A program made the translations under genes and the position numbers. Positions 7,234-50,204 of a stretch of 64,000 bases of DNA are shown here, piece after piece. Within the stretch, counting starts at the first letter, position 1. Each line of letters begins with the position of its first letter. Origin of the DNA: Synechococcus sp. PCC 6312 (GTDB lineage: Bacteria; Cyanobacteriota; Cyanobacteriia; Thermosynechococcales; Thermosynechococcaceae); NCBI RefSeq assembly GCF_000316685.1, contig NC_019680.1, forward strand, positions 2,923,407 through 2,987,406, given 5' to 3'. Under the pieces are notes generated by a model. That model saw only the letters and a program-made list of their open reading frames with translations. It did no database searches and was not told the DNA's origin.

Positions 7234-9837
7234 GTGGAAAATTTCGATGTTTTGGCAGTTTATCGGCAACATACAGCAGAACGGGCTGAGTTAGGTATTC
7301 CCCCGTTGCCCCTGACCGCTGAACAAACCTCCCAGGCCTGTGAACTCCTCAAATCTCCCCCAGCCGATGACGCTGATTACCTGTTGCATTTAATTCGGGA
7401 TCGAGTTCCTCCCGGTGTGGATCAGGCCGCCTATGTCAAAGCCGGATTTTTAACCGGGATTGCTAAAGGTGAATTTTCTAGCCCGTTGATTAGTCCCAAA
7501 TATGCCGTTGAACTCCTGGGAACCATGCTGGGCGGCTATAACGTTCATTCGTTGGTGGAATTACTTAAGTCCGAAGATGTTGAATTGGCCACCACCGCCA
7601 TGACGGCTCTGAGTAAAACCTTGCTAGTCTATGATGCCCTCCATGATGTCCAAGAATTAGCCGCCAGTGGGAATCATTTTGCTCAAGAACTACTCCAGGC
7701 CTGGGCAGATGCCACATGGTTTACCAGTCGGCCCCAACTCCCGGAAGCCATAACCGTCACCGTCTTCAAAGTCCCCGGCGAAACCAATACGGATGATCTC
7801 TCTCCCGCCCCTCTAGCCACAACTCGCCCGGATATTCCCCTCCACGCCACAGTGATGTTGGAAAGCCGCCAATCGGGAAGTTTAGACACCATTGCGGAAC
7901 TGAAAAAATTGGGGCATCCGGTGGCCTATGTGGGTGATGTGGTCGGAACTGGCTCTTCCCGCAAATCAGCGACTAACTCTGTTCTCTGGCATACGGGGGA
8001 TGATATTCCCTTTGTCCCCAATAAACGCACCGGCGGCTACTGCTTAGGCGGAAAAATTGCCCCGATTTTCTTTAACACCATGGAAGATTCCGGGGCCTTG
8101 CCGATTGAGTGCGATGTCACCCAGATGAACACCGGCGATGCAATCACGATTTATCCGTACCAAGGTGAGATCAAAAATGCGGCGGGCGAGGTGATTTCCA
8201 CGTTCCAACTCAAACCTGACACCATTCTCGATGAAGTCCGGGCCGGGGGGCGGATTCCGTTGTTGATTGGGCGCACTCTCACCGATAAAGTCCGGGCTGC
8301 CATGGGGTTAGAGCCAAGTCCTGTCTTTACCCGGCCTGGGATTCCGGCAACCGTGACTCACGGGTTTACCTTGGCGCAAAAAATGGTCGGACAGGCCTGT
8401 GGATTGCCAGGAGTATTACCCGGAACCTATTGCGAACCCGTGATGACGACTGTTGGCTCTCAAGATACAACCGGGCCGATGACGCGGGATGAACTGAAAG
8501 AGTTGGCCTGTTTGGGGTTTGGGGCTGATTTGGTGATGCAGAGTTTTTGCCATACTGCCGCCTATCCGAAGCCTGTGGATATTACCACCCATAAAGATTT
8601 ACCGGATTTTATTAATTCCCGTGGGGGTGTCTCGCTCCGGCCTGGGGATGGGATTATTCACTCCTGGCTGAATCGGATGTTGTTGCCGGATACGGTCGGG
8701 ACGGGTGGCGATTCTCATACGCGGTTTCCTTTGGGGATTTCCTTTCCAGCGGGTTCGGGGTTGGTGGCTTTTGCAGCAGCCTTGGGAGTCATGCCCTTGG
8801 ATATGCCGGAGTCGGTCTTGGTGCGGTTTAAGGGACAGTTACAACCAGGCGTGACATTGCGGGATATTGTCAATGCGATTCCCTATGTGGCGATGCAGCA
8901 GGGCAAGTTAACAGTGGCCAAGGAAAACAAAATCAATGTCTATTCCGGCAAAATCATTGAAATGGAAGGCCTCCCCGATTTGCAGTTGGAACAGGCCTTT
9001 GAGTTGACGGATGCCACAGCGGAACGGTCAGCCGCCGGATGCACCATCAAACTCAGTGAAGAAACCGTTGCCACCTATTTACGCTCCAATGTGGCCCTGT
9101 TGAAAAACATGGTGGCCCGAGGTTATGGCGATGCCCGAACGATTCTGCGACGGGTGAAGAAAATGGAAGAGTGGCTGGCGAATCCAGTTTTACTTTCTGC
9201 GGATCCCGATGCCGTTTATGCCGATGTGATTGAGGTGGATTTAGACCAAATTAAAGAACCCATCGTGGCGGCTCCCAACGACCCCGACAATATCAAGTTG
9301 ATGTCGGAATGTGCGGGTGATCCAATCCATGAGGTGTTTATTGGCTCCTGCATGACAAATATTGGTCACTATCGGGCAGCGGCGAAAGTGTTGGAAGGCG
9401 AGGGTGCGTGTAAGGTGCGGCTGTGGATTGCTCCCCCGACTCGGATGGATGAACAACAACTGAAGGAAGAAGGCTACTATGCCACGTTTGCAGCAGCGGG
9501 GGCGCGGTTAGAAATGCCGGGATGTTCGCTCTGTATGGGAAATCAGGCCAGGGTGGCAGATGGAGTCACAGTCTTTTCCACGTCAACCCGGAACTTTAAC
9601 AATCGCATGGGCAAAGGCGCACAGGTTTATCTCGGTTCGGCAGAGTTGGCGGCGGTTTGTGCGTTGTTGGGGCGGATTCCAACGGTGGAGGAGTATCTAA
9701 ACATCGTCACCAAGAAAATTGATCCCTTAGCCGCTGACCTCTATCGCTATTTATACTTTGATCAGGTGGCTGGTTTTGAGGATGAAGGGCGATTGATTTC
9801 GGCTGAGGAGGAGTCTAAGTTATTGGCTTCAGTTTAG
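7234..9837 (+). CDS. acnB: Aconitate hydratase B
   Basis: Bifunctional aconitase B isomerises citrate to isocitrate through cis-aconitate with a [4Fe-4S] cluster. The product is 867 residues, the normal AcnB size. The N-terminal HEAT-like domain (about 1-160) is followed by the swivel domain and the core domain. Cluster ligands are visible as CHTAA, then CMTNIGHYRAA and CSLCMGNQARV. GTG 7234 is chosen because AGAGAGG (7221-7227) gives a 6-nt spacer; a TTG at 7228 would touch that site. It is a probable single-gene unit, divergent from mtnP. Confidence 0.95.
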   Translation: MENFDVLAVYRQHTAERAELGIPPLPLTAEQTSQACELLKSPPADDADYLLHLIRDRVPPGVDQAAYVKAGFLTGIAKGEFSSPLISPKYAVELLGTMLGGYNVHSLVELLKSEDVELATTAMTALSKTLLVYDALHDVQELAASGNHFAQELLQAWADATWFTSRPQLPEAITVTVFKVPGETNTDDLSPAPLATTRPDIPLHATVMLESRQSGSLDTIAELKKLGHPVAYVGDVVGTGSSRKSATNSVLWHTGDDIPFVPNKRTGGYCLGGKIAPIFFNTMEDSGALPIECDVTQMNTGDAITIYPYQGEIKNAAGEVISTFQLKPDTILDEVRAGGRIPLLIGRTLTDKVRAAMGLEPSPVFTRPGIPATVTHGFTLAQKMVGQACGLPGVLPGTYCEPVMTTVGSQDTTGPMTRDELKELACLGFGADLVMQSFCHTAAYPKPVDITTHKDLPDFINSRGGVSLRPGDGIIHSWLNRMLLPDTVGTGGDSHTRFPLGISFPAGSGLVAFAAALGVMPLDMPESVLVRFKGQLQPGVTLRDIVNAIPYVAMQQGKLTVAKENKINVYSGKIIEMEGLPDLQLEQAFELTDATAERSAAGCTIKLSEETVATYLRSNVALLKNMVARGYGDARTILRRVKKMEEWLANPVLLSADPDAVYADVIEVDLDQIKEPIVAAPNDPDNIKLMSECAGDPIHEVFIGSCMTNIGHYRAAAKVLEGEGACKVRLWIAPPTRMDEQQLKEEGYYATFAAAGARLEMPGCSLCMGNQARVADGVTVFSTSTRNFNNRMGKGAQVYLGSAELAAVCALLGRIPTVEEYLNIVTKKIDPLAADLYRYLYFDQVAGFEDEGRLISAEEESKLLASV

Positions 9838-40027: not shown

Positions 40028-40501
40028 TCTAGACCATATTAGAGGACAAATTTTGGCTAGGGCCGCTCATTTTGAGAGTCAGCAGAACGGGGTATGGCAT
40101 TGGCGCGACTGATTAGATAAACCATTGGTATGGTTAGTTATTAGTATGAATTTCATGTGCGGGATTTTAATTCCGATGTTAGGAAAAGATAGATTCAACG
40201 ATCAGGAAAAACCCGCCTCCTTCAACTAGTCCAATTTTTCATGTTCGCCCCAGGCCTGGTGGTGGTTGGCAAGTAAAACAAGAGGGAATCCGAAAAACTA
40301 AAAGCCTTTTTAACTCAGAAAGAGGCGACTCAGTTTCAAGCACAAGGATAAGAGCATAAACATAGAAACTCGACAGCGGCAACTCCTGGGGGATAATCCT
40401 CACCTAAGCTGGAGCGGCTCAAATTGTTACGATAAATCCCCAGTCTTTTAGATTTGTGATCTAAATCACTGTCAACAGTTGGTAGTTTGTCAACTTAAGT
40501 C
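40028..40501. other. Non-coding stretch with a DUF2188-like gene remnant
   Basis: About 470 bp without an intact gene between the hydrolase gene and the mobile region. At 40227-40345 the plus strand reads FHVRPRPGGGWQVKQEG and then IRKTKSLFNSE, which resembles DUF2188 proteins; a one-base shift is needed to continue KEATQFQAQG before a stop. It is therefore probably a frameshifted pseudogene, and its start codon is not clear. Confidence 0.4.
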
Positions 40502-41068
40502 TTAAGCGGGCCTAATCCGGTGAACCCAGGCCCCAGGCCGGGCGGGGTCAAACTTCCCAGCCTTGTAGAGATTAAAGCTGTGGCCTGGAGACTGACCCGC
40601 CACGCAGGCCGCATAAATTCCAAGACTAGAGTAGAAACCATCGTAAAAATTGGCCCCCGGCAAGTAACGCCAGGCCGGGAAATCAAACTCGGCCCAAGGG
40701 TCTTTAACTGAAAACCTTACTCCTAGGGTCTTTTGGTCAATTTCCACCGCGTCTAAGCAAATCACGTGACCACTACGGGTAAACCAGCCATGAGTGATTA
40801 GGAACTCCCCGGCCTGGAGCCAAGCTGCCATCTGGTTAATTGAGGCGGCCAGTTCAAAAGAGTAGCGGTTGCCAATGCGGGCCTGGATAAAGTTGCCCAT
40901 ATTGCCAGGACTCCCAGCCAGTCCGCGGGCCACCAACTCAGCCCTAACCGTCCTAATTTTTTCCTTGGGATAGCCTAAAGTCATGGCCACACAGGCAGAT
41001 TGGCAAGTTACGCTGTCCGGCTGCGGGAGATTGGTCGCCTTAACTTTAGTTTCAAAGAGCTTCCGCAT
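40502..41068 (-). CDS. C39-like cysteine peptidase
   Basis: A 188-residue protein that resembles the C39-like peptidase fold. The nucleophile cysteine lies in SVTCQSACVAMTLGYP, the histidine in GWFTRSGHVICLDAV, and an aspartate in VRFSVKDPWAEFD. The arrangement C ... H ... D matches papain-like C39 enzymes, which in bacteria process leader peptides or, in phages, can act on peptidoglycan. No signal peptide is visible. It is the last gene of the minus-strand cluster, where phages often keep endolysins; that role is inference. It follows a one-TM protein by 4 bp. Confidence 0.6.
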   Translation of the reverse strand: MRKLFETKVKATNLPQPDSVTCQSACVAMTLGYPKEKIRTVRAELVARGLAGSPGNMGNFIQARIGNRYSFELAASINQMAAWLQAGEFLITHGWFTRSGHVICLDAVEIDQKTLGVRFSVKDPWAEFDFPAWRYLPGANFYDGFYSSLGIYAACVAGQSPGHSFNLYKAGKFDPARPGAWVHRIRPA

Positions 41069-41072
41069 AGGT

Positions 41073-41318
41073 TCACCGTTTTAACTCTGCAATTAGTTTA
41101 TTTGTGGCCTCAGTGTTGAGCCGAATCGCATCTCCCAGGCTACCCAAACTTTTAGCCAGTTCCGACTTATCGGCCTGGAGATAGGAAACCTGTGGAACAC
41201 AGATCGTGTTGTAAAAAGCCAAAAATCCACCGCCCACACCCGCTAGTCCGGCACAAATAGCCGCAACCGTGGCCGTAGAAAGTCGGACAACAGTAAAGCC
41301 CTCGCGGTCAGTAGTCAT
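41073..41318 (-). CDS. Small one-TM protein, possible holin- or anchor-like
   Basis: An 81-residue protein with one membrane helix (TVAAICAGLAGVGGGFLAFY, about 18-37) and a C-terminal helix (ADKSELAKSLGSLGDAIRLN). The start ATG 41318 is followed by a short polar N-terminus. It lies 4 bp upstream of the C39-like gene and is probably co-translated with it. A holin- or spanin-like part is suggested by order only; the single helix and extended C-terminal helix do not define a known family. Confidence 0.5.
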   Translation of the reverse strand: MTTDREGFTVVRLSTATVAAICAGLAGVGGGFLAFYNTICVPQVSYLQADKSELAKSLGSLGDAIRLNTEATNKLIAELKR

Positions 41319-41380
41319 GGTTTTGGCCCCCAGGCCTGGAAGAACGCAAACAAGTTAAAACAGGGTCAGCCTACCCAAAA

Positions 41381-41803
41381 TTAGATTTTGTAAAGCTTAC
41401 CGTTGGGCCAGCGAAATTCTTTAACCTTTTTGGAATCGTTGAACTTGTTGAAACAGTCCGCCGCCGAGATGCCATAAGGTACTTTTAATTGTCTCCAGAC
41501 CTTAATGTCCTGGTTCTTCTTATTTTTCTTCGTCACCCCAGTCCAGCACCGAATCACCTTATGCCCAACTGTGACCGGCTTAGAATTGCCAGCGAGATAC
41601 TGACGACCCTTGCTATCAGTCGCCACCTTGAGGCCTCCCGCAACAGCTTCATCTGCGGTAGCTTCAGCTAAACCGCAGGCCGTTGCCGCTAACCGGTCAA
41701 CATAGGAGAACGCCTTAACATCCTTCTTCGCCCCATCCACTTTTTTCTTAACCGTGCCCCAAAGGATGAGCATCTTGGAGCCGCGGTCTTTAGTTGCAGC
41801 CAT
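41381..41803 (-). CDS. Hypothetical basic protein of the element
   Basis: A 140-residue lysine-rich protein (KKKVDGAKKDVKAFSYVDRL, then GHKVIRCWTGVTKKNKKNQD). No membrane helix or known domain was recognised. The tail WPNGKLYKI may be conserved. The minus-strand neighbours are separated by short gaps (about 50-60 bp), so it belongs to the element's late-gene-like cluster. It may bind nucleic acid or be structural, but this cannot be decided. Confidence 0.5.
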   Translation of the reverse strand: MAATKDRGSKMLILWGTVKKKVDGAKKDVKAFSYVDRLAATACGLAEATADEAVAGGLKVATDSKGRQYLAGNSKPVTVGHKVIRCWTGVTKKNKKNQDIKVWRQLKVPYGISAADCFNKFNDSKKVKEFRWPNGKLYKI

Positions 41804-41850
41804 AGCCGTTAAATCTCCCTAAAAAAATTGATTTTAGTCAAGTTGCCAGA

Positions 41851-42081
41851 TTAAGGAAGATACTCATCGGCTTCAATCGTCAACTCTCCCCCAGCCCCGG
41901 AAATCATAATCGGTAGAGTCACCCGCAAGCTAACCGTTTGTTCCTCGAAGTCGGGCTGAATGGTGATGTTGTCGGGCCGGTCTTCTTCCGGCACAGCTAA
42001 CTCTGCCAGTTGAGCCACCCGGGCCAGTTCCAGGATTTGACCTTCTAGAGTGGTGGAGGTGGTGATGTGTGCAGCAGCCAT
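41851..42081 (-). CDS. Hypothetical small acidic protein of the element
   Basis: A 76-residue protein without a recognised domain. It has an N-terminal helix (LEGQILELARVAQLAELAVP) and a beta-rich end (EEQTVSLRVTLPIMISGAGG, then ELTIEADEYLP). It resembles, from memory, small proteins found next to similar clusters in filamentous cyanobacteria, which would make this a recurring element gene; not verified. It starts at ATG 42081. Confidence 0.5.
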   Translation of the reverse strand: MAAAHITTSTTLEGQILELARVAQLAELAVPEEDRPDNITIQPDFEEQTVSLRVTLPIMISGAGGELTIEADEYLP

Positions 42082-42205
42082 AAAAGTCTCTCAAATAGAA
42101 CTGCCCCCAGAGTACAAAGTACCGTAACAGGTAACAGACTCTGGCTAGAGTTCAACCGAGAGGGTTAAGGCTCTCAATCAGACGCAGACGTGAAGTCTCG
42201 GTGAC

Positions 42206-42430
42206 TCAATCCTGCAAATTTCCACTGAATTTCTTAATGTGAGGGTGGTCAAAATCACCGAGTCGCCAGAGCAGAAACGTTCGGAGTTCTGAGGGTTTGA
42301 CCGCTTTTTCTCTTAACGCTGTGTCTAGTAATTTGTGTAACAAATAAAAATCAGGGTCAGCGAGGACTCTGATGACTTTGGTTGGTAAAGAACACTTCCC
42401 AGTTTGCCTTCGTGTTGTTGCCCGTGCCAT
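42206..42430 (-). CDS. Hypothetical protein overlapping its upstream neighbour
   Basis: A roughly 74-residue frame that overlaps the 3' end of the 235-aa gene by 74 bp in a different frame. The part beyond the overlap reads as a real protein: VLADPDFYLLHKLLDTALRE, then KAVKPSELRTFLLWRLG. The start is uncertain; ATG 42430 is used, and a start inside or after the overlap is possible. The helix-rich content and its place in the cluster support a gene; function unknown. Confidence 0.4.
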   Translation of the reverse strand: MARATTRRQTGKCSLPTKVIRVLADPDFYLLHKLLDTALREKAVKPSELRTFLLWRLGDFDHPHIKKFSGNLQD

Positions 42431-43064
42431 CGTAAAACACCACCTTATAGGGGTAAACCACAGAAGTATCTCGCCGTTCATCAACCTGGGTAAACGAGAC
42501 TTTGGCCTCTCTCACCCTCGGAACACTGATTCCTTTGACCAAGGCCTTAAAGACGCGTTCCCCCATCTTGGCCGAACCCGCATTGATGAAAATCTTGCTA
42601 TTGTCGGCAAGCCTAACGACCGTGGCCACGTTCCCTTTCTGATAAACCGGGAAATCGTAACCCTTTGTCCCTGATGCCTTGAGTTTCCAATGGGGAATAG
42701 TTAGGGGGTAACTTGGGCCCCAAAACTTGCCGTTTTTGAATTTGCGGTAGATAACGACTAGCTGGGGGACGCTGCCCCATTTGGTTTCATACCATTCAGG
42801 AATCGCCGCAATCCCATCTTTGGCCAGTTGCCCCCTAGACTTGACTAGGACGTAGAATAGCCAAAATCGGAATAGGGCCTTGATTGCGTTGTCGTTGTCC
42901 GTGACGGTACAGGCTGTTTTAAGAGTGCGCTGCCCTTTACTAAGAGCCTTGCCTTCCTCAGTCTTAAAGTGTTGGTTAACCCATTGGTTGTGGAGTTTAA
43001 CTGAGGTTTTTCTGAGATACTCCCAGCTTGCTGGATCAGGTTTAGTGCGATTGAAGTTTGTCAC
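42357..43064 (-). CDS. Hypothetical protein of the element (235 aa)
   Basis: A 235-residue soluble protein without a recognised domain. It starts MTNFNRTKPDPASWEYLRKT and contains a tryptophan- and aromatic-rich middle (FWLFYVLVKSRGQL, YPLTIPHWKLKASG). The start overlaps the 670-aa gene by 4 bp (ATGA), so both are translated together. Lysine and tyrosine rich; perhaps a structural component of the element. It contains no nuclease motif that I could identify. Confidence 0.5.
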   Translation of the reverse strand: MTNFNRTKPDPASWEYLRKTSVKLHNQWVNQHFKTEEGKALSKGQRTLKTACTVTDNDNAIKALFRFWLFYVLVKSRGQLAKDGIAAIPEWYETKWGSVPQLVVIYRKFKNGKFWGPSYPLTIPHWKLKASGTKGYDFPVYQKGNVATVVRLADNSKIFINAGSAKMGERVFKALVKGISVPRVREAKVSFTQVDERRDTSVVYPYKVVFYDGTGNNTKANWEVFFTNQSHQSPR

Positions 43065-45073
43065 AAATCAGTATCCTCTGACTCAGGAATATCTTTAGGA
43101 GTATCCAATCTGGCCAAGTTCTCAGCTTTTTTGTTTAGGAGTTTCTGCGCTTCATCGATAGCTTTATCGAACTCAGTTTTAGCGTTTTCCAAGTCTTTAA
43201 TGGTGTCTTGAGCCGTTTTTACTCCAGTCAAAACCATTTGCATTCCCGACAAAACATCTTCAGCTTGATTTAAGCGTGTGAAGAATTTAGTTGAAAAGTC
43301 TGGATTTGGAAGCTGCCAATTTAGCAAGTCATTATCAACTAAACCAGAGGCTTTTAAGGCGTTACTTAGTTCAGCATTATATTGTGCTGTCATCTCCAGT
43401 CCTTCTGAAATGTCGAGGAGCGCGGATTGAAGATTGGATAGCACGTTAGCAGCAGCTTGATAGGCTCGGTTAGATTGCTGCCAGGCCTGGTTTATAGACT
43501 CTAGAGTCTCTGTGCCGATCAAGCTTTCTAAAAGGTCTTGAGTTCCCTCACCAATAACTGTTGAAATTGACAAAGGTTGTCCATCGTCATCTTTGGGAGT
43601 AAGCCCGACTACACTTAATCCCAAATCAACTACGGCCATCAGCGTACTAACCACGTTAGAAGATAGTTGAGCCGCGTTGTGAAGCGTTACTAGCAACGTT
43701 AAAAGGTTGATTAGTTCCTGGGTTTTTTTGTTCCGCTTCAGGTTCTCTAAAGTCTCTTGAAAATTGCGCCTGACCTCTTGACCGTTTTCGCCAATCTCTC
43801 TGACTTTTTCGCCAATCGTATCTTTGAGGTCGTTTAACCTAGATACCGTATCAGTTACCTTCGTATCTAAGCCAGTGACTTTAAGGTCAAGGTTATTAAG
43901 CCTAGAAATAACTGGAGACAAATCAACCACTTCATCTAACCTAATCACAGTAATTTTAATCTCTCTAATTGCATCGTATAGATATTCTGAGTTACCTGGT
44001 AAAGGTCTAGGGATAGGTCTAAAATCTATTCCAGTTTGAACTAAATCTATAATAGGCTGTAAGGGATTATCAGTTTTAATTACTAATTGCAATAGAGGAG
44101 GTAAATAAGTTCCCCCTTCAGAAAATAGCCATCCTTCAGGAAACGACCATAAAATATCTCTACCGCTAAAATTAGCATCTCTAAAAGGATAGGATATTAA
44201 ATCCTGTTCTATTGTCTGAAAATAGATACTATCTAAGTTAGACTCATAAAATGGATTTATATTAAATTGATAAACAACATCATCTATATAATTTCCTGAA
44301 TAATGTTGTGATTCTATTCTTAAGGTCAAGTCATAACCTGTATTTACTTTTAAGCCTATTATCCTAGCTGTAGTTTCATCTAAATAAATGCCGTCATCTA
44401 TAGGCGGTTCGTTATCATCTTCTCTATTAACTTTTTTTAATAAAAGTTTGCCATTAGTTCTAGATGCTTGTTTGTCTCTATTCTCTGCCTTAATTACTAA
44501 TCTATAAATATCTCTATCTGTTATAAAGGTAACGCTACCTGATAACAATACTTCTGTAAAATCTTCTGAATCTAAACCCTTAAAGAATACCTTGATTAAA
44601 TCTTGTTGCCCCAATAAGGGTGGTTGTACTGACCAATTAAAGGTTATAGAATCGCCTAGATCAAATCTATTCTTATTAACTGTGACGTTTACAATAGGTT
44701 GAAACTGTCTAACTCCGCTATCGTTTCCTAAACCCTGAAAAGGAAAGTTTAAGTTTTTAAGATATTCTGCTAATAGGTCAGGTATTAAGTTACCCACTTT
44801 ATTAATTCTAAGTACTCTAGGACTAAAAGACGGCTTAGGCGTGGGAATATGCCTAGGAGTTATCCCTACAGTATTTAATGGCGGCCTATAAGTCGAATTA
44901 ATGGGTAAAGTTCTATAACCTTGCGGGGTTAAGATTGTTTGATAGCTAGGATTACCTGGAACTGTATTAACACGATTGTAAACGTTAGTAGTTAATACAG
45001 GCTTATTGTAAGAACTATTGCCTATACCTTGCCTTACTACTTGTCTTTGTAACTGTTGCTGTAAAGTTATCAA
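43061..45073 (-). CDS. Large coiled-coil protein of the element (670 aa)
   Basis: A 670-residue protein. An N-terminal stretch of about 110 residues is rich in proline, threonine and tyrosine, followed by beta-rich segments (VNVTVNKNRFDLGDSITFNW, VTFITDRDIYRLVIKAENRD) that look Ig-like, and a long alpha-helical C-terminal half with heptads (LDLKVTGLDTKVTDTVSRLN, then KVREIGENGQEVRRNFQETL). The arrangement, extended N-terminus, beta domain and coiled coil, resembles fibre or baseplate-type proteins, but no phage family was recognised. The gene is AT-rich and its 5' part lacks the CAGGCC motif, unlike its neighbours. It overlaps the 235-aa gene by 4 bp. Confidence 0.55.
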   Translation of the reverse strand: MITLQQQLQRQVVRQGIGNSSYNKPVLTTNVYNRVNTVPGNPSYQTILTPQGYRTLPINSTYRPPLNTVGITPRHIPTPKPSFSPRVLRINKVGNLIPDLLAEYLKNLNFPFQGLGNDSGVRQFQPIVNVTVNKNRFDLGDSITFNWSVQPPLLGQQDLIKVFFKGLDSEDFTEVLLSGSVTFITDRDIYRLVIKAENRDKQASRTNGKLLLKKVNREDDNEPPIDDGIYLDETTARIIGLKVNTGYDLTLRIESQHYSGNYIDDVVYQFNINPFYESNLDSIYFQTIEQDLISYPFRDANFSGRDILWSFPEGWLFSEGGTYLPPLLQLVIKTDNPLQPIIDLVQTGIDFRPIPRPLPGNSEYLYDAIREIKITVIRLDEVVDLSPVISRLNNLDLKVTGLDTKVTDTVSRLNDLKDTIGEKVREIGENGQEVRRNFQETLENLKRNKKTQELINLLTLLVTLHNAAQLSSNVVSTLMAVVDLGLSVVGLTPKDDDGQPLSISTVIGEGTQDLLESLIGTETLESINQAWQQSNRAYQAAANVLSNLQSALLDISEGLEMTAQYNAELSNALKASGLVDNDLLNWQLPNPDFSTKFFTRLNQAEDVLSGMQMVLTGVKTAQDTIKDLENAKTEFDKAIDEAQKLLNKKAENLARLDTPKDIPESEDTDL

Positions 45074-45079
45074 GGCAAT

Positions 45080-45424
45080 TTACCAGTAATTGGGCATGAC
45101 ATATGGTGCATCATTATCTGAAAAAGTATCTAAATTAGATGGACTAAAAATAAAGCTCCCATCTCCATTTGTAGGGATAAACAAAGTGATATACAGGAAA
45201 TTGTTAAAGCCTTGGTTATCTGGCAAAGTAGTAGTTTGCAATTTAGCTGGATAATCTAATACTCCCCCTCCTAAGTCCAGTTTTATATCTTGCTCTCTTA
45301 AGGCACTGATATAGGTGGCAATCATGAGATAGAGAATTATTTCAAATCCATTAGTTAAATTACTTTGCTGATTGCCTTCTATATTGCCCACTAAATAGCT
45401 AGACAAATCTTCGGAAATTTTCAC
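45080..45424 (-). CDS. Hypothetical protein of the element (114 aa)
   Basis: A 114-residue protein, first gene of the minus-strand cluster, ending 6 bp before the 670-aa gene. It contains NGFEIILYLMIATYISALRE and FNNFLYITLFIPTNGDGSFI, beta strands and one hydrophobic helix-like stretch, without a recognised domain. ATG 45424 is preceded by AAAGGAAAT on the minus strand, a good ribosome site. The promoter should lie in the dyad-rich region 45425-45613. Confidence 0.5.
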   Translation of the reverse strand: MKISEDLSSYLVGNIEGNQQSNLTNGFEIILYLMIATYISALREQDIKLDLGGGVLDYPAKLQTTTLPDNQGFNNFLYITLFIPTNGDGSFIFSPSNLDTFSDNDAPYVMPNYW

Positions 45425-45483
45425 GGTTATTTCCTTTGTAATTAGGATTGCTCTTATTTTGGGATAAGTTTTTAAGATTGGGA

Positions 45484-45513
45484 AGTGTCAACTTTTACAT
45501 AAAACTTGACACT
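45484..45513. repeat. Large dyad, AGTGTCAA arms, upstream of the recombinase gene
   Basis: AGTGTCAA-C-TTTT, then ACAT, then AAAA-C-TTGACACT: a 30-bp interrupted palindrome that is perfect except for the central ACAT and one C/C pair. With a second dyad at 45580 sharing the TGTCAA core, it is a candidate binding or crossover site of the adjacent recombinase, or an operator of the divergent genes. Confidence 0.6.
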
Positions 45514-45519
45514 ATTAAA

Positions 45520-45550
45520 AATCCCCTAAGCCTTGACTGGTAAGGGGATT
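45520..45550 (-). terminator. Hairpin AATCCCCT...AGGGGATT, terminator-like on the minus strand
   Basis: Eight-base arms at 45520-45527 and 45543-45550. On the minus strand the stem is followed by a run of T (TTTTTAAT), which fits an intrinsic terminator for minus-strand transcription coming from the right; it may instead be part of the attachment region. Confidence 0.45.
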
Positions 45551-45579
45551 GCTGTGTTAGCTTTAGTTTGAATAAAAAA

Positions 45580-45622
45580 CACTGTCAATATTTTACAATT
45601 TCTAGAAGGTTTCTTGACAGTG
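45580..45622. repeat. Second large dyad, CACTGTCAA/TTGACAGTG arms
   Basis: Perfect 9-bp arms (45580-45588 and 45614-45622) flank 25 bp. The right arm includes the GTG start codon of the recombinase, so binding here could both mark a recombination site and repress the gene. The TGTCAA core is shared with the dyad at 45484-45513. Confidence 0.6.
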
Positions 45623-46177
45623 AAAGTTAATCGCTCAGGCCAAGCTGAACCACTTACAAAAGAACAGTTCCTAACTGTTTTCCGCAGTTTGTCACCACCC
45701 CATCGGTTTATTCTTGCCCTTACTTGGCACTGTGCTGAGAGAGTCGGGGCAGTTTGCAATTTGGAAGTGGCTCACGTTTTCCAGGCCAACGGTAAACCCA
45801 GGCCGACCCTTTTAATTCCAGGCCGGATTAGGAAAGATAAAGTTACCCGTGAAATTCCGGTGACGCGGGGCCTGGGGCAGATTTTAAGGGAGATTACGAT
45901 TCCTGACAGCCCCTGGCTCTTTCCCAGTCAGCTTAATCTAGGCCGACCCATGAACCCCCAGGTTTACTCACGCGCTCTTAAAACTGAGTTCCTTCGTTTA
46001 GGCCTCTCTGGGTATTCGACCCACTCGGCCCGGCGGGGAGCGATCACTCTTCTGTCCCAGGCCGGACTGAACGCTAGGCAAATTCAGAAAATCTCCGGCC
46101 ATGCCTCTCTCAATTCTGTCCAGCTTTACTGTGAGGTTTCCCCGGCTGAGGTTGAGGCTGGGTTGGCTCTACTCTGA
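45620..46177 (+). CDS. Tyrosine recombinase (short phage-type integrase)
   Basis: A 186-residue integrase without the N-terminal arm-binding and core-binding domains of larger integrases. The catalytic set is visible: arginine in WHCAERVGAV, the H-x-x-R of STHSARRGAITLL, and H then Y in GHASLNSVQLYCEV. The catalytic domain alone, about 180 residues, is typical of small tyrosine recombinases. The start GTG 45620 lies within the second dyad; TTG 45614 is an alternative. It overlaps the convergent DUF6788-like gene by 52 bp at the 3' end. It probably integrates or excises the element. Confidence 0.85.
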   Translation: MKVNRSGQAEPLTKEQFLTVFRSLSPPHRFILALTWHCAERVGAVCNLEVAHVFQANGKPRPTLLIPGRIRKDKVTREIPVTRGLGQILREITIPDSPWLFPSQLNLGRPMNPQVYSRALKTEFLRLGLSGYSTHSARRGAITLLSQAGLNARQIQKISGHASLNSVQLYCEVSPAEVEAGLALL

Positions 46178-46503
46178 TCTGGTAGGTCTTTGCCGATATA
46201 CCGAGTACGGGTCTTGCCCCCTTCTTTCCAGAACGCGTACCAATAAGGCCCATGGGGGCAACTCTGGCACTCTGACTTCCCGCAGTTTACGGGCTTTAAC
46301 TGGTAACTGACTCCAGGCCCCCCTAACTCCCCTTGAACCCTATCACTCTTATCTAACTTTGGTGAACCTATCACGCTTTTGGTTAGATAAGACTTTTCTA
46401 ACGGGTTAGACTGTGCTGGCCTCTCTCCCGCGCCTATTCCTTCTAGTGGCAGAGGTAACTGATCTCCCTCCAGGAGCCTGGACGGATCAACTTTTGAACT
46501 CAT
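46126..46503 (-). CDS. DUF6788-like protein
   Basis: A roughly 125-residue protein. The C-terminal half reads VSYQLKPVNCGKSECQSCPH and GPYWYAFWKEGGKTRTRYIG, which matches the DUF6788 pattern (KCGK..C, C..GHGPYYY, EGGKTRTRYI). The two C pairs may bind zinc. Similar sequences occur beside mobile elements; the function is unknown. ATG 46503 (MSSKVDPSRLLEG) overlaps the repressor gene by 4 bp (ATGA), so the pair is one unit. The 3' end overlaps the recombinase gene in the opposite direction. Confidence 0.65.
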   Translation of the reverse strand: MSSKVDPSRLLEGDQLPLPLEGIGAGERPAQSNPLEKSYLTKSVIGSPKLDKSDRVQGELGGPGVSYQLKPVNCGKSECQSCPHGPYWYAFWKEGGKTRTRYIGKDLPDQSRANPASTSAGETSQ

Positions 46504-46736
46504 TGCCGATGGATGCGCTTGATGTTTTCTAGGGCCTCTACCAGTTCTGGTAATGTGCAGTTCAATATTTGGCAAAGTCTTTGCATTTCTACTGGGTTAA
46601 GTGTGGGCATAGATTTACCGTTTTCCCATTCGGAGACAGTTTGACGCGTTACTCCCAATAGCTCGCCTAAACGTTCCTGGCTAATCCCTACTTTTTGTCT
46701 AAGCATTTTGAACGTCACCAAATCATCTAGTTTCAT
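46500..46736 (-). CDS. XRE-family (Cro/CI-like) transcriptional repressor
   Basis: A 78-residue helix-turn-helix protein: LRQKVGISQERLGELLGVTR followed by QTVSEWENGKSMPTL, a standard HTH_3 domain with the recognition helix around TRQTVSEW. It begins MKLDDLVTFKML. It faces a strong promoter/operator on the other strand, 7 bp from its start (46744-46799), and is expected to control that divergent promoter and itself. The small size and genomic context match phage or element master repressors. Confidence 0.85.
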   Translation of the reverse strand: MKLDDLVTFKMLRQKVGISQERLGELLGVTRQTVSEWENGKSMPTLNPVEMQRLCQILNCTLPELVEALENIKRIHRQ

Positions 46737-46743
46737 TGTAAGG

Positions 46744-46799
46744 TTGACCCGACATTATGGGATGTGTATGATGGCAATGTCGGGTTAAGCCGACAATTA
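46744..46799 (+). promoter_or_regulatory. Divergent promoter/operator of the element
   Basis: TTGACC at 46744-46749 and TATGAT at 46767-46772 are exactly 17 bp apart, a strong sigma-70 promoter on the plus strand. Inverted repeats TTGACCCGACATT (46744-46756) and AATGTCGGGTTAA (46776-46788) match at 12 of 13 positions; a third partial copy CCGACAATTA follows at 46790-46799. The left arm covers the -35 and the right arm lies just after the -10, as a repressor operator would. Confidence 0.8.
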
Positions 46800-46888
46800 G
46801 GAGAAAGCAACAAAGCGGGAACCCGTCACCAGGCCCCGCCAACTTGTTTTGCTCAATTAACTTGATTATCTCAATTGGAGTAGAGACA

Positions 46889-47101
46889 GTGGAAAACGAT
46901 TTTAGAAAAGCGCCAGAGTTCGGGGAAGTGTTTCTAGACTTTATCCGGGCCTATGGCTTTGCCCAGATTGTGCTGACACGCGATCAGGTTTTAGGGCCTC
47001 AAGACTTCTGTGCTTTGCAAATTGCAATCACCGATTTACTTGAATCAATGACCGCTATTTATGACATGGCCTGGCCTGAGGGGAAGAAAGATGGAGAGTA
47101 G
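46889..47101 (+). CDS. Hypothetical small protein of the element
   Basis: A 70-residue protein, VENDFRKAPEFGEVFLDFIR followed by AYGFAQIVLTRDQVLG, helical and acidic with no recognised domain. GTG 46889 is favoured by GGAG at 46877-46880; the frame extends to ATG 46844 with a hydrophobic N-terminus (MFCSINLIISIGV), an alternative. First gene of the plus-strand transcript from the operator-controlled promoter. Function unknown; it may be an element regulator. Confidence 0.5.
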   Translation: MENDFRKAPEFGEVFLDFIRAYGFAQIVLTRDQVLGPQDFCALQIAITDLLESMTAIYDMAWPEGKKDGE

Positions 47102-47330
47102 CCCCTACTTCGTTCAGTTTCCAGGCCTGGGCCTGGCCATCAATTTAGCTCAAGTCCAAAAAATTGAATACGACTCAGCCAAGCGGGAAGCCGCAATCTA
47201 TCAGGCCTTCGGACTCAAGACTTACCTAACTGGGGAGAACTGCGACTTTTTCCTTGATTCTCTGAGGCAAGTACCCGGAGTCCAAAAGTTTGATTTTGGG
47301 GGAACTGAGGAACCTGATCACCCCTATTAA
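47091..47330 (+). CDS. Hypothetical small protein of the element, followed by a ribozyme
   Basis: A 79-residue protein: MESSPYFVQFPGLGLAINLA, then VQKIEYDSAKREAAIYQAFG. It overlaps the previous gene by 11 bp and its TAA (47328-47330) is immediately followed by the hammerhead ribozyme. No domain recognised. The CCAGGCCTGG palindrome is inside the coding region (47121-47130), which suggests it has been resident in this lineage for some time or came from a related strain. Confidence 0.5.
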   Translation: MESSPYFVQFPGLGLAINLAQVQKIEYDSAKREAAIYQAFGLKTYLTGENCDFFLDSLRQVPGVQKFDFGGTEEPDHPY

Positions 47331-47394
47331 TTCCGCCTGATGAGGCCGGATGATCCACCGGCCGAAACTGCTCAGTTGTTGGGCAGTCGCGGGA
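47331..47394 (+). ncRNA. Type I hammerhead ribozyme
   Basis: All invariant hammerhead positions are present in order: stem I 5' strand TTCCGC (47331-47336), core CTGATGA (47337-47343), stem II GGCCGG/CCGGCC with an 8-base loop (47344-47363), core GAAA (47364-47367), stem III CTGCTC/GGGCAG with a 7-base loop (47368-47386), and TC (47387-47388) before the cleavage site. The stem I 3' strand GCGGGA (47389-47394) pairs with TTCCGC (one G-T wobble). The open ends lie in stem I, so it is type I. Cleavage is predicted between C47388 and G47389. Confidence 0.93.
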
Positions 47395-47419
47395 AGGATC
47401 GCAACCTGACCGTAGGGAT

Positions 47420-47528
47420 GCCTTGAAGATAAAGTAGGCTTTGGCCTTTCCGGATTTGTAGGCTCATATCCCTTTACCCTTAAGTCTTGAAAGTAAAGCA
47501 GGCTTCGGCCTCTGGGTGATTTGCAGAC
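47420..47528 (+). ncRNA. Pair of paralogous RNA hairpins between ribozyme and IS110-like transposase
   Basis: Two similar 44-45 nt units, 47420-47463 and 47484-47528. Each has an inner hairpin AGGC-loop-GCCT, with loop TTTG in the first and TTCG, a stable tetraloop, in the second. The outer arms are GCCT/AGGC in the first and GTCT/AGAC in the second: a C-G pair in one is a T-A pair in the other, a compensatory change that supports RNA pairing. IS110 elements encode a guide (bridge) RNA next to the transposase, so this is a candidate, but not a proven, guide RNA. Confidence 0.6.
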
Positions 47529-47573
47529 TTTCTATAGGGTTTTAGCGACTATTCACCTGTGCTAGGAAAATTT

Positions 47574-48800
47574 ATGCTGATTGCTGGCCTTGATGTCTCG
47601 AAGGCTGATGTTGTCGTGTGTCTGATTGACACCGATCAACCACTCCCAGACCCCAGAGAACTGTATCTTACTGGCAACTTTCCCCGGCTCACCACCACGG
47701 CGGGGGGATTGAAAGCCTTGCTTGAATTGAAGCCTGATGTTTGTGTTTTAGAACCCACAGGCACGAATTACTCTAAGTTTTGGTGTTACAAACTGAACCA
47801 GGCCGGGGTAAAACTACTGCTAGTGTCTCACTCTAAGGTCAGACGCTACAGAGAGTGTATCCTGTCTGAAGATAAGGATGATGAGGGGGATTCTCTCGCC
47901 TTGGCCTATTACGGGGTTCAGAATTTTAAGAATGATGGGGCCTTTCTCAGAAGACGGGATGATGTTGCCCAACAAATGCGGGAGAGATGCCACCAACTAG
48001 ACCACTTGAGCCGGATTCAATCGCCGATCATCAATCGCCTTAAACAAGACCTGGCCTGGCAATTTCCAGAGGAAGCCAGCAAGAGGGTTGAGGCGGTTCT
48101 GTTTTGGCGATGGCTGGCCGGGGAAGCCAAGTCAAAACGCTATGACAATGCTTTAGCAAATACCTGCGGCCTGGGGCTGACTGAATCAACCCGTTACCAT
48201 GCAAGGCTGTTAATTCAGTTATTCCCCCGGCAACTCCAACTCACTAGGGAACTGGCAACCTTGCTCAAAGACCCAAGGTTTAGACCCTATCGCAAAGTCT
48301 TTGCTAAGTATGGCTTCGGAGAGAAACTAGAGGCGATTCTAATCAGCCACATCTACCCACTGTCTAACTTTCTGGGGGAAGATGGCTTACCCATTGCCCC
48401 ATGCACCAGGTCTAAGAAAGACCCGAAAAAACAGACGGTTAAACACCTTTCCCTGAGACGGTTTCAGAAAACCCTGGGCTGTTCTCCTACCCGTGAATGG
48501 TCAGGCAAAAAGAACAAAGGTTCTAAACAGGCCAAGCTGGCCGGGTCTGCTCAGTGCCGAGTCGGGCTATGGCAGTGGCTATTTACCCGGATTGAGAAGA
48601 AAGGGGCCAGGCCCAAGAACTTGCCTCAGACCGCCTGGTTAGTCTCCGAAACTCTAGTGCAAGGATCAATTCTGGAATACTTTGAGTATCAGAAAAGCAC
48701 CGCTGTGATTAAGCTGGCCCGGTCTCGCACTATTGCCAAGGTGACTAAACTTCTGTTCTACGATCTGGTTGCTGAGTTAAGTCCAGACTCTCAGAAGTAA
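47574..48800 (+). CDS. IS110-family transposase (DEDD recombinase)
   Basis: A 408-residue recombinase. The RuvC-like N-terminal domain shows IAGLDVSKADVVVCLI with D, the central VCVLEPTGTNYSKFW with E, and EDKDDEGDSLALAYYG with the last acids of the D-E-D-D set. The C-terminal domain has a helix-hairpin-helix-like FGEKLEAILISHIYPL and a serine- and lysine-rich stretch (WSGKKNKGSKQAKLAGSAQ) before a final helix, in the position of the IS110 serine domain. ATG 47574 has AGGAAAA at 47563. It cleaves and joins element DNA, guided by a structured RNA in studied members. Confidence 0.8.
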   Translation: MLIAGLDVSKADVVVCLIDTDQPLPDPRELYLTGNFPRLTTTAGGLKALLELKPDVCVLEPTGTNYSKFWCYKLNQAGVKLLLVSHSKVRRYRECILSEDKDDEGDSLALAYYGVQNFKNDGAFLRRRDDVAQQMRERCHQLDHLSRIQSPIINRLKQDLAWQFPEEASKRVEAVLFWRWLAGEAKSKRYDNALANTCGLGLTESTRYHARLLIQLFPRQLQLTRELATLLKDPRFRPYRKVFAKYGFGEKLEAILISHIYPLSNFLGEDGLPIAPCTRSKKDPKKQTVKHLSLRRFQKTLGCSPTREWSGKKNKGSKQAKLAGSAQCRVGLWQWLFTRIEKKGARPKNLPQTAWLVSETLVQGSILEYFEYQKSTAVIKLARSRTIAKVTKLLFYDLVAELSPDSQK

Positions 48801-48806
48801 GAAAAG

Positions 48807-48840
48807 GGGACTGAATATAGTTTCTATAAACTTTAGTCCC
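48807..48840. repeat. Inverted repeat after the transposase gene
   Basis: GGGACTGAA and TTTAGTCCC form a stem with an inner ATAG/CTAT pair. There is no T run, so this is not a standard terminator; it may be a transcript end or part of the IS edge. Confidence 0.4.
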
Positions 48841-48896
48841 TCCATGAAAACCGTTAACGTAAAATAAGAATTAAGCCAACTTGAGAGTTTATCCCT

Positions 48897-50204
48897 ATGG
48901 CAGAAGTCGCAACCTTAAACCCAGCGGTCATGCAGGCTGTTGAACAATTAGGCTATCGAGTCACGGTCGGCGATGTTGCGGCTAAGGCTGGTTTAGACCT
49001 CAATACTTCTCAAAAGGGCTTGTTGGCCTTGGCCAGTGCAGTGGGTGGAGATCTGCAAGTGGCCGAATCTGGGGATATTGCCTATGTCTTGCCACGGGAC
49101 TTTCGGGGAATTTTGCGGTCTAAGTATTTACGGATTCAACTCCAAGAGGCCTGGGCCAAGGTTTGGGCTGTTCTGTTTTATTTGATTCGGATGTCCTTTG
49201 GGATTTTCTTAATTCTCTCAATCGTCTTAATCTTTGTTGCCATCATTGTCATTGTGATTGCTGCCAGTAGTAGCCGAAATGATAACAATAACCGCTCCGG
49301 TGGCTTTGACTTCCCCCGTTTTATCTTCTTTCCAGACTTTTGGTGGTTTTTTGGCAGTGATCCCTATCGGCCCCGACGGCAGTCGTCCCGTAATCAGCGG
49401 CAGAATCCAGAGGAAATGAACTTCTTAGAAGGGATTTATTCGTTTCTCTTTGGTGATGGGAATCCCAATGTCAATCTGGAATCACGGCGCTGGCAAGAAG
49501 TCGGGCAGCAAATTATCAACCAAAAAGGAGCCGTCGTTGCTGAACAAATTGCCCCCTATCTGGATATTCCCCCAGGCCCGCTGCCCAGTGGCGAAAACTT
49601 TATGATTCCGGTCTTGAGTCGCTTTAATGGGGTTCCTCAAGTTACGGAGCAGGGCGAGATTATTTACCATTTCCCAGATCTTCAGGCCACGGCCAAACAA
49701 CAACGCCAAAAACCTGTTTCACCCTATCTGGAAGAAATTACTTGGAAATTTACCCGCGCCAGTAGTGGACAAGTGATGTTAGCCATTGGCCTGGGCTGTA
49801 TCAATCTAGTCGGGGCCCTAGTCCTGTGGAATTTACTGGGTGATGGGTCGGTGGCAACTCAGTTGGGCGGCATCGTGGCCTTTGTTCAGTCAATCTTTTG
49901 GGTCTTGGTGGCCTATGGCCTGGGCTTTTTGGGAATTCCCCTCGGTCGCTACTACTGGATTCTAGTGATGAATGGCCGAATCAAGGCCCGCAATCAAATC
50001 CGAGAAAACCGGGCCGAAATTCTCCGCACCGCCGCTGCCACCCTTAAGGACAAAATTACCGCCGCCCAAGCCTATGCTGCAGAAACCCTGATCACGTCCA
50101 CAAATTTGGCTTACACCACTGAAAAAGACCTGATCACCCAAGAAGCCGAGCAAACTGACAAAATTGATACTGAGTGGCAAAGGCTCCTCGAAGACCGCAG
50201 CTAA
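48897..50204 (+). CDS. Conserved membrane protein (cyanobacterial/chloroplast family)
   Basis: A 435-residue protein. Residues 1-75 form a helical, HTH-like domain: VMQAVEQLGYRVTVGDVAAK followed by AGLDLNTSQKGLLALASAVG. It is followed by a strong membrane segment (MSFGIFLILSIVLIFVAIIV) and, nearer the end, two more (QVMLAIGLGCINLVGALVLW, and IVAFVQSIFWVLVAYGLGFL). The sequence resembles an Arabidopsis chloroplast protein (At5g03900), whose annotated iron-sulfur role is tentative. Preceded by a separate upstream region after the IS. Membrane location is clear, function is not. Confidence 0.7.
   Translation: MAEVATLNPAVMQAVEQLGYRVTVGDVAAKAGLDLNTSQKGLLALASAVGGDLQVAESGDIAYVLPRDFRGILRSKYLRIQLQEAWAKVWAVLFYLIRMSFGIFLILSIVLIFVAIIVIVIAASSSRNDNNNRSGGFDFPRFIFFPDFWWFFGSDPYRPRRQSSRNQRQNPEEMNFLEGIYSFLFGDGNPNVNLESRRWQEVGQQIINQKGAVVAEQIAPYLDIPPGPLPSGENFMIPVLSRFNGVPQVTEQGEIIYHFPDLQATAKQQRQKPVSPYLEEITWKFTRASSGQVMLAIGLGCINLVGALVLWNLLGDGSVATQLGGIVAFVQSIFWVLVAYGLGFLGIPLGRYYWILVMNGRIKARNQIRENRAEILRTAAATLKDKITAAQAYAAETLITSTNLAYTTEKDLITQEAEQTDKIDTEWQRLLEDRS

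Follow-up and report, generated by a model that had tools for sequence, protein, structure and literature searches.

A 64,000-nucleotide stretch of the Synechococcus sp. PCC 6312 genome (contig NC_019680.1, positions 2,923,407 to 2,987,406; hereafter the window) holds a locus in which a hammerhead ribozyme, a set of hairpins and an IS110-family recombinase gene follow one another on the + strand. We interpret this locus, with a probability of roughly 0.82, as a module for the integration of a larger mobile element, within which the hammerhead matures a bridge RNA from an operon transcript and the RNA guides the recombinase. In many cyanobacteria such a hammerhead sits exactly where the recombinase's guide RNA begins, apparently freeing the guide from the upstream messenger. 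The sequences show the ribozyme consensus and its covariation, the ribozyme-recombinase association, the matches between guides and flanks and the ends of the elements; cleavage, the promoter and the order of events are inferred. An original prediction for this DNA had described the order as a small open reading frame (ORF), a hammerhead, two hairpins and a transposase, and had proposed that the hairpins are a guide RNA; the order holds, and the guide hypothesis is supported by the matches of the target loop to the flanks and of the donor loop to the element ends. A third short hairpin, absent from that prediction, begins at the cleavage site (47389-47413).

Judged by its sequence, the segment 47331-47394 is a type I hammerhead ribozyme: it has the CUGANGA/GAA core, three stems, an NUH cleavage site and an open stem I, the parts being stem I (TTCCGC/GCGGGA), CTGATGA, stem II (GGCCGG/CCGGCC), GAA, stem III and GTC. 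Cleavage is predicted after the GTC at 47388 and would yield a product starting with GCGGGAAGG, as originally proposed. In an alignment of 12 homologous loci (the window among them) that was built without structure, 96.6% of the pair cells hold standard pairs and 12 of the 17 pairs show changes on both sides, which occur in stems I, II and III; this pairing together with the both-side changes was reached by none of 500 shuffles. The homologous loci carry CTGA[TC]GA ... GAAA ... NUH in the same position, and their recombinases are 31-67% identical to that of the window. At L274, a locus outside the 12 (prefixes L and G denote our loci and genomes), stem I CCGC/GCGG is replaced by CCAC/GTGG. Cleavage sites were parsed in 39 of 48 loci (35 GUC, 3 AUC and 1 UUC); of the nine missed by the strict parser, seven score 44.5-60.4 bits with our hammerhead model R1, L265 scores 30.9 bits and L275 gives no match. 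The window reaches 69.4 bits with R1 but is itself one of the 12 sequences from which R1 was built, and some of the other loci scanned with R1 likewise contributed to it. At the gathering threshold no Rfam family matches the window locus; the best sub-threshold match, the RAGATH-1-hammerhead (RF03152), shares the hammerhead core and the open stem I, but at 25.8 bits against a cut-off of 56.3 the window does not qualify as a member.

The relation of the ribozyme to the RNA behind it offers the best indication that the purpose of cleavage is to define a 5' end. The bridge RNA of the window (47389-47530) has the form of a 5' stem-loop followed by two stem-loops with internal loops, the target and donor loops, and its first hairpin starts at the predicted cleavage nucleotide, so that GCGG has two partners: upstream it completes stem I, and downstream it provides the 5' strand of the first bridge RNA hairpin. 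Of 36 distinct loci, 32 have the first two nucleotides after the cut base-paired in the predicted fold, as against 1591 of 3600 shuffles. Across 31 sequences (five of the 36 omitted), 79.2% of the cells of the nine-pair 5' hairpin are paired, a value reached by 0/500 shuffles; six of its pairs change on both sides, which 17 of 500 shuffles equalled. In L274 stem I and the 5' hairpin change together. On its other side the ribozyme adjoins a gene: in 35 of 44 loci an upstream co-directional ORF (60 codons or longer) stops between -20 and +15 relative to the ribozyme core, compared with 0-10 at seven shifted points, and 10 of these ORFs end on the TGA inside CTGATGA. Of the proposal that the ribozyme sets the guide's 5' end and splits off the upstream messenger, the position at the RNA 5' end and next to a stop codon is borne out, and the cleavage itself stands as a prediction. 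In the window about 7 kb separate the bridge RNA from the left end of the element. It sits behind co-directional cargo genes and would be unable to use a promoter formed at a circle junction, which is why a ribozyme would be useful; the simplest view is that the bridge RNA forms part of an operon transcript, which has to be cut.

The recombinase encoded at 47559-48800 is, by its sequence features, an IS110-family enzyme with the DEDD residues and the conserved serine. It matches PF01548 with 41 bits (cut-off 29) and NCBIfam NF051857.1 with 390 bits (cut-off 180) over residues 3-399; PF02371 is matched with 18.4 bits, just under its cut-off of 21.3, and the profile matches in the PDB are ISCro4 and IS621. 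D7, E60, D103 and D106 are invariant among 11 homologues and S310-G311 is nearly so; the latter aligns with an SG of ISCro4 within a weakly aligned stretch, and the spacing of D103 and D106 equals that of D102 and D105 in IS621. On a reading from this spacing and weak alignment, these residues correspond to the IS621 active site, given as D11, E60, D102, D105 and S241-G242 in the available text of Hiraizumi 2024 (PMC11208158). The recombinase is rare in annotated collections, being present in 2 of 72,556 plasmids and in none of 50,697 annotated phages. The window protein as a single query found no relative in viral and genome contigs, in scans that reach close relatives only.

The association between ribozyme and recombinase was followed in 292 genomes of the phylum, in which R1 (E <= 0.001) gave 31 hammerhead matches in 20 genomes and the recombinase alignment A1 (E <= 1e-20) gave 39 matches in 23. 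Comparison of coordinates by hand shows that 28 of the 31 hammerheads are followed on the same strand, within about 400 nt, by the recombinase; of the other three, those in G291 and G149 have no recombinase, and in G121 the contig stops 288 nt further on with donor-loop sequence still visible. After exclusion of six recombinase fragments lacking the N-terminus, 29 of the remaining 33 have an intact hammerhead (28 by coordinates, and G146/L274 at 44.8 bits), and L265, the second copy in G155, has a hammerhead enlarged by an insert of some 37 nt (30.9 bits). The hammerhead is the usual companion of the recombinase, not an obligatory one. A DNA pattern scan of genome contigs returned 113 hammerhead matches, 34 of them with this recombinase 148-344 nt downstream; these 34 are not independent, several being copies in one Arthrospira genome and some repeating loci of the other collection. 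Their hosts are cyanobacterial in all 24 cases with listed titles (ten titles not shown). The same scan of viral contigs gave 95 matches, one of them with this recombinase downstream. Apart from this association, hammerhead matches with no such recombinase downstream number 94/95 in the viral and 79/113 in the genome contigs, some of them at contig ends.

The hairpins are, on the evidence of sequence matches, an IS110-type bridge RNA, its target guides matching the flanks and its donor guides the element's own ends. Right ends were sought from the donor loop alone, as TA followed by a 7-mer equal to the left donor guide, with the right donor guide fixing the core; the rule was drawn up after some matches had been seen by eye and superseded a first, noisy one (22 loci entered, 20 used). 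Among 52 loci it found an end in 18, sequence was missing there in six, and none was found in 28, including the window. At the 18 ends the right flank is complementary to the locus's own target-loop RNA over at least 8 nt in 13 loci, against 2 of 306 mismatched pairs, and the sum of matches was reached by none of 10,000 permutations. Left ends, defined as the core followed by TCCC (the right donor guide with one RNA nucleotide unpaired), had a candidate in 12 of 32 loci, with a left target guide match of 8-9 nt in nine, 6 in the window and 3 in two; with the RNAs of other loci the best candidate reached 8 nt in 3 of 176 controls. L261 and L262, two related elements of genome G304, have a common left guide and different right guides, and their right flanks fit their own RNAs (9 and 8 nt) better than each other's (7 and 6). 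Five Nostoc-type RNAs (L063, L070, L097, L108 and L140) are nearly alike and differ mainly in the target guides, and the core changes in step between guides and ends (GAA, AAA, and GTA in L274). Two further features were seen at these ends: TA, which is part of the rule's definition, precedes the guide-matched 7 nt where the aligned guides often have G or A, and the right donor guide has one nucleotide unpaired against the left end. It is possible that both are constraints of the complex.

As to the extent of the element, the original prediction had taken 47331-48840 as the mobile unit; the elements prove to be about 4.6-16 kb long (40437-48863 in the window), with the RNA and the recombinase at the right end. 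The left end of the window element follows from the core-TCCC rule and has GATAAA (6 nt) in common with the target loop; its right end, missed by the automatic rule, was set by eye from the donor loop (7/9 nt) and likeness to relatives. With both ends known, the sizes are 15,745 bp (L263), 13,885 bp (L268), 15,373 bp (L270), 4,587 bp (L274) and 8,427 bp (window), with 11,491 and 10,139 bp for L261 and L262; in these last two the recombinase stop codon and the right end of the element overlap (CTAGACTGAA). When joined, the flanks of L268 (220 nt) occur ungapped in G365 and G131 (82%, positions 1-220), and in G266 their halves lie about 14 kb apart; because the sequence is multi-copy, these empty-site relatives are possibly paralogous. 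One relative covers the L270 junction, over query positions 81-220. Multi-copy instances, which the original prediction had suggested looking for, occur in Arthrospira sp. PCC 9108, with 10 full copies and one partial copy of the ribozyme/RNA region and a hammerhead in each copy read; the element there is about 14.4 kb, with edges at about -12,775 and +1,655 from the ribozyme, the left one seen in 7 of 10 copies. Loss of the hammerhead wherever the insertion sequence (IS) occurs elsewhere, which had been named as the outcome that would tell against the idea, was not observed, as all 10 full Arthrospira copies carry it; that the ribozyme always moves with the recombinase holds for these 10 copies and fails in 3 of the 33 loci above.

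Several observations weigh against our interpretation. A plain minimum-energy fold of 47325-47400 does not produce the hammerhead shape and the bridge RNA stretch of the window is without unusual folding stability (z 0.38), so that the case for both RNAs rests on comparison and not on folding energy. The right-end rule gave no end in 28 of the 46 evaluable loci, and 5 of the 18 ends that it did find match the target loop by 4-5 nt only. The agreement between guides and flanks holds for the group and only partly for the window, the target loop of which fits the left flank for 6 nt and the right flank for 4 nt; the genome has seven perfect 11-mers GATAAATCCGG, the site that this loop predicts, none of them at the position of the element. 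Perhaps the window copy is old, or a different guide directed its insertion. The 10 Arthrospira copies had been expected to share a target and do not, and their flanks show no consistent match to the target loop. Finally, the recombinases of G047, G076 and G324 come with the same RNA but no hammerhead, so that the type can do without the ribozyme. As a separate observation, these three loci (L024, L025 and L275) carry, immediately 5' of the bridge RNA, a hairpin that seems to differ and might be an alternative route for setting the 5' end.

The alternative that deserves most attention, although we consider it unlikely, is that the hammerhead acts for the upstream operon or for the mRNA of the recombinase, by 3'-end formation or uncoupling of translation, and that its place at the 5' end of the bridge RNA is a by-product. 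The closeness to the upstream stop codon in those 35 of 44 loci, including the 10 that use the TGA within CTGATGA, speaks for it, as does G002, where two loci share 850 nt at 98% covering the upstream ORF and the ribozyme, diverge just behind it and differ in RNA and recombinase. However, G035 has the reverse case as well: L021 and L022 agree at 99.3% over the 451 nt that lead up to the ribozyme, and L022 and L020 share the RNA and recombinase side from the ribozyme onward. The cassette seems, from these sequences, to have been exchanged at the ribozyme, which is also kept while the upstream ORFs differ. An upstream role likewise leaves aside the first hairpin starting at the cleavage nucleotide and the joint change of stem I and hairpin in L274.

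That the hairpins are a guide RNA and the hammerhead a non-cleaving, passive relic retained by module shuffling appears very improbable. The three loci without a hammerhead and the insertion of about 37 nt in L265 would fit such decay, but the catalytic core and the NUH site are intact throughout the 39 parsed loci, and both-side changes affect all three stems across recombinases as divergent as those aligned here. IS110 elements are usually about 1.5 kb long, and with the recombinase at one edge of the element one could imagine an ordinary IS of that size that landed in a host element carrying the hammerhead. This we regard as hardly credible and have rejected: left ends that match the target loop lie 3.2-14.5 kb from the recombinase, the Arthrospira copies have a common left edge about 12.8 kb upstream, the empty site of L268 removes 13.9 kb, and no related copy was seen with a left end between ribozyme and recombinase.

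Returning to the maturation of a bridge RNA by the hammerhead, the events might run as follows. A promoter near 46750 would drive a single transcript covering two small genes, the hammerhead, the bridge RNA and the recombinase gene; in a scan of 46650-48900 the only + strand promoter-like site (46744-46772) lies upstream of this operon, and the promoter evidence is weak, because three sites were found in all where 1.7 are expected. The hammerhead would cleave itself after the GTC at 47388 and free the upstream messenger, whereupon the new 5' end, GCGG, would leave stem I of the ribozyme and fold into the 5' stem-loop of the bridge RNA. The matured RNA would then join the IS110 recombinase. Its donor loop would pair with the junction of the element ends in the circular form and its target loop with roughly 13 bp of chromosomal sequence surrounding a 3-nt core, and recombination would place the element at that site. 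We lean somewhat toward a further idea, that of a self-maturing guide RNA: with one strand common to stem I and the 5' stem-loop, cleavage would hand that strand to the guide fold and so couple cutting, release and folding, and the complete bridge RNA/recombinase cassette could function downstream of any operon in a family of virus-like elements whose integration is guided by RNA.

As far as the available text of the reports on IS621/IS110 describes them (Durrant 2024, PMC11208160; Hiraizumi 2024, PMC11208158), the module resembles those systems in its DEDD recombinase with a conserved S-G, in an RNA that lies ahead of the gene and consists of a 5' stem-loop, a target loop and a donor loop, and in four guides that match the target and donor halves around a core. 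In IS621 the joined circle ends form a promoter that adjoins the RNA (PMC11208160, in the portion available). By contrast, a hammerhead at the 5' end takes the place of this promoter here, the 3-nt core covaries, the right donor guide has one extra RNA nucleotide, and the element is 4.6-16 kb long with its own genes. The canonical layout, with the RNA in the left end next to a circle-junction promoter, was found neither in the window nor in nine other elements, in which the RNA lies 3-14 kb from the left end; since the RNA lies kilobases away, the system would work like an IS110 bridge RNA in a non-canonical layout. It also shares RNA-guided target choice with the seekRNA of IS1111/IS110 elements, the cargo of which can be moved experimentally; in the accessible text of that report (PMC11187229) the ribozyme is that of hepatitis delta virus (HDV), added 3' in constructs, and the word hammerhead does not occur. 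HDV ribozymes added 3' of the guide are a feature of laboratory bridge RNA and seekRNA constructs, and the ribozyme mentions in the available text of two IS110 papers concern such constructs. A full-text literature search on IS110, bridge RNA or seekRNA together with ribozymes found no such hammerhead described in the texts covered, a coverage that leaves out most subscription journals and is no proof of absence from print. In a 2026 preprint (PMC13142463), VIPR systems have hammerhead-interspersed guide arrays and hence also hammerheads adjoining guide RNAs; according to its available text these have a RAMP protein, a repeat code and phage interference and are not a recombinase system. Identity with VIPR was rejected, as neither a RAMP protein nor a repeat array was seen at the locus.

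If our interpretation is correct, many bacterial hammerheads gain a concrete job, the maturation of the guide of an RNA-guided recombinase, and bridge RNAs would serve larger, possibly virus-like elements, beyond short insertion sequences. It would also provide a design from nature for excising a guide RNA from any transcript by means of its own ribozyme, nature appearing to place a hammerhead 5' of the guide and laboratory constructs an HDV ribozyme 3' of it. Filamentous Neisseria phages reportedly carry an IS110/Piv-type transposase, an instance of an IS110-type enzyme proposed as the integrase of a larger virus-like element; we know of no ribozyme in these phages.

Table 1. Features of the locus in window coordinates (^ marks the predicted cleavage site or an element boundary)
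Feature	Position	Strand	Basis
Whole mobile element, 8427 bp; left end AAA^TCCCCAG, right end TAACGTAAA^	40437-48863		ends from guides and likeness to relatives
Small tyrosine recombinase common to related elements	45614-46177	+	PF00589 1.7e-17; homologues in 7/13 context loci
Helix-turn-helix (HTH) regulator, divergent	46500-46736	-	Pfam HTH_3 4.5e-15
Inverted repeat with promoter-like site (46744-46772, +), between divergent HTH gene and operon running into ribozyme	46735-46797		consensus match only
Small ORF, first in operon	46844-47101	+	no Pfam family
Small ORF, stop TAA directly adjoining ribozyme	47061-47330	+	none matched in family searches
Type I hammerhead ribozyme, predicted cleavage 47388/47389 (GTC^GCGG)	47331-47394	+	sequence, covariation, R1 69.4 bits
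Bridge RNA 5' stem-loop; 5' strand GCGG doubles as 3' strand of ribozyme stem I	47389-47413	+	comparison of homologues
Target hairpin with internal loop; left guide TGAAGATAAA (47424-47433), right guide CCGGATTT (47450-47457)	47415-47472	+	read from sequence; roles from homologues
Donor hairpin with internal loop; left guide GAAAGTAAA (47489-47497), right guide TGGGTGATTT (47513-47522)	47482-47530	+	sequence; match to element's own ends
IS110-family (DEDD) recombinase; alternative ATG start 47574	47559-48800	+	PF01548, NF051857.1, PDB profile matches

Beyond the module, many of the related elements have in common a small tyrosine recombinase, an HTH gene and long minus-strand genes. Single matches to a phage lysozyme, an endosialidase chaperone (Peptidase_S74) and an F5/8 domain were obtained in them; searches of 37 proteins from six elements (one of them without a phage match) against Pfam, PHROGs or NCBIfam recovered almost no structural gene. 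These matches point to an undescribed family of elements with a possibly virus-like origin. The tyrosine recombinase of about 185-190 residues (L263:9724-10293 for comparison with the window) stands beside the IS110-type enzyme, giving two recombination chemistries in one element. The blocks of minus-strand genes (40502-45424 in the window, and in L263, L268, L270 and L274) have almost no family matches. The inverted repeat over the promoter-like site of the window resembles an operator. In L020 a MITE-like 160-bp repeat (7244-7403, with a second copy at 1328-1487; 97% identical) is inserted between the donor loop and the recombinase gene.
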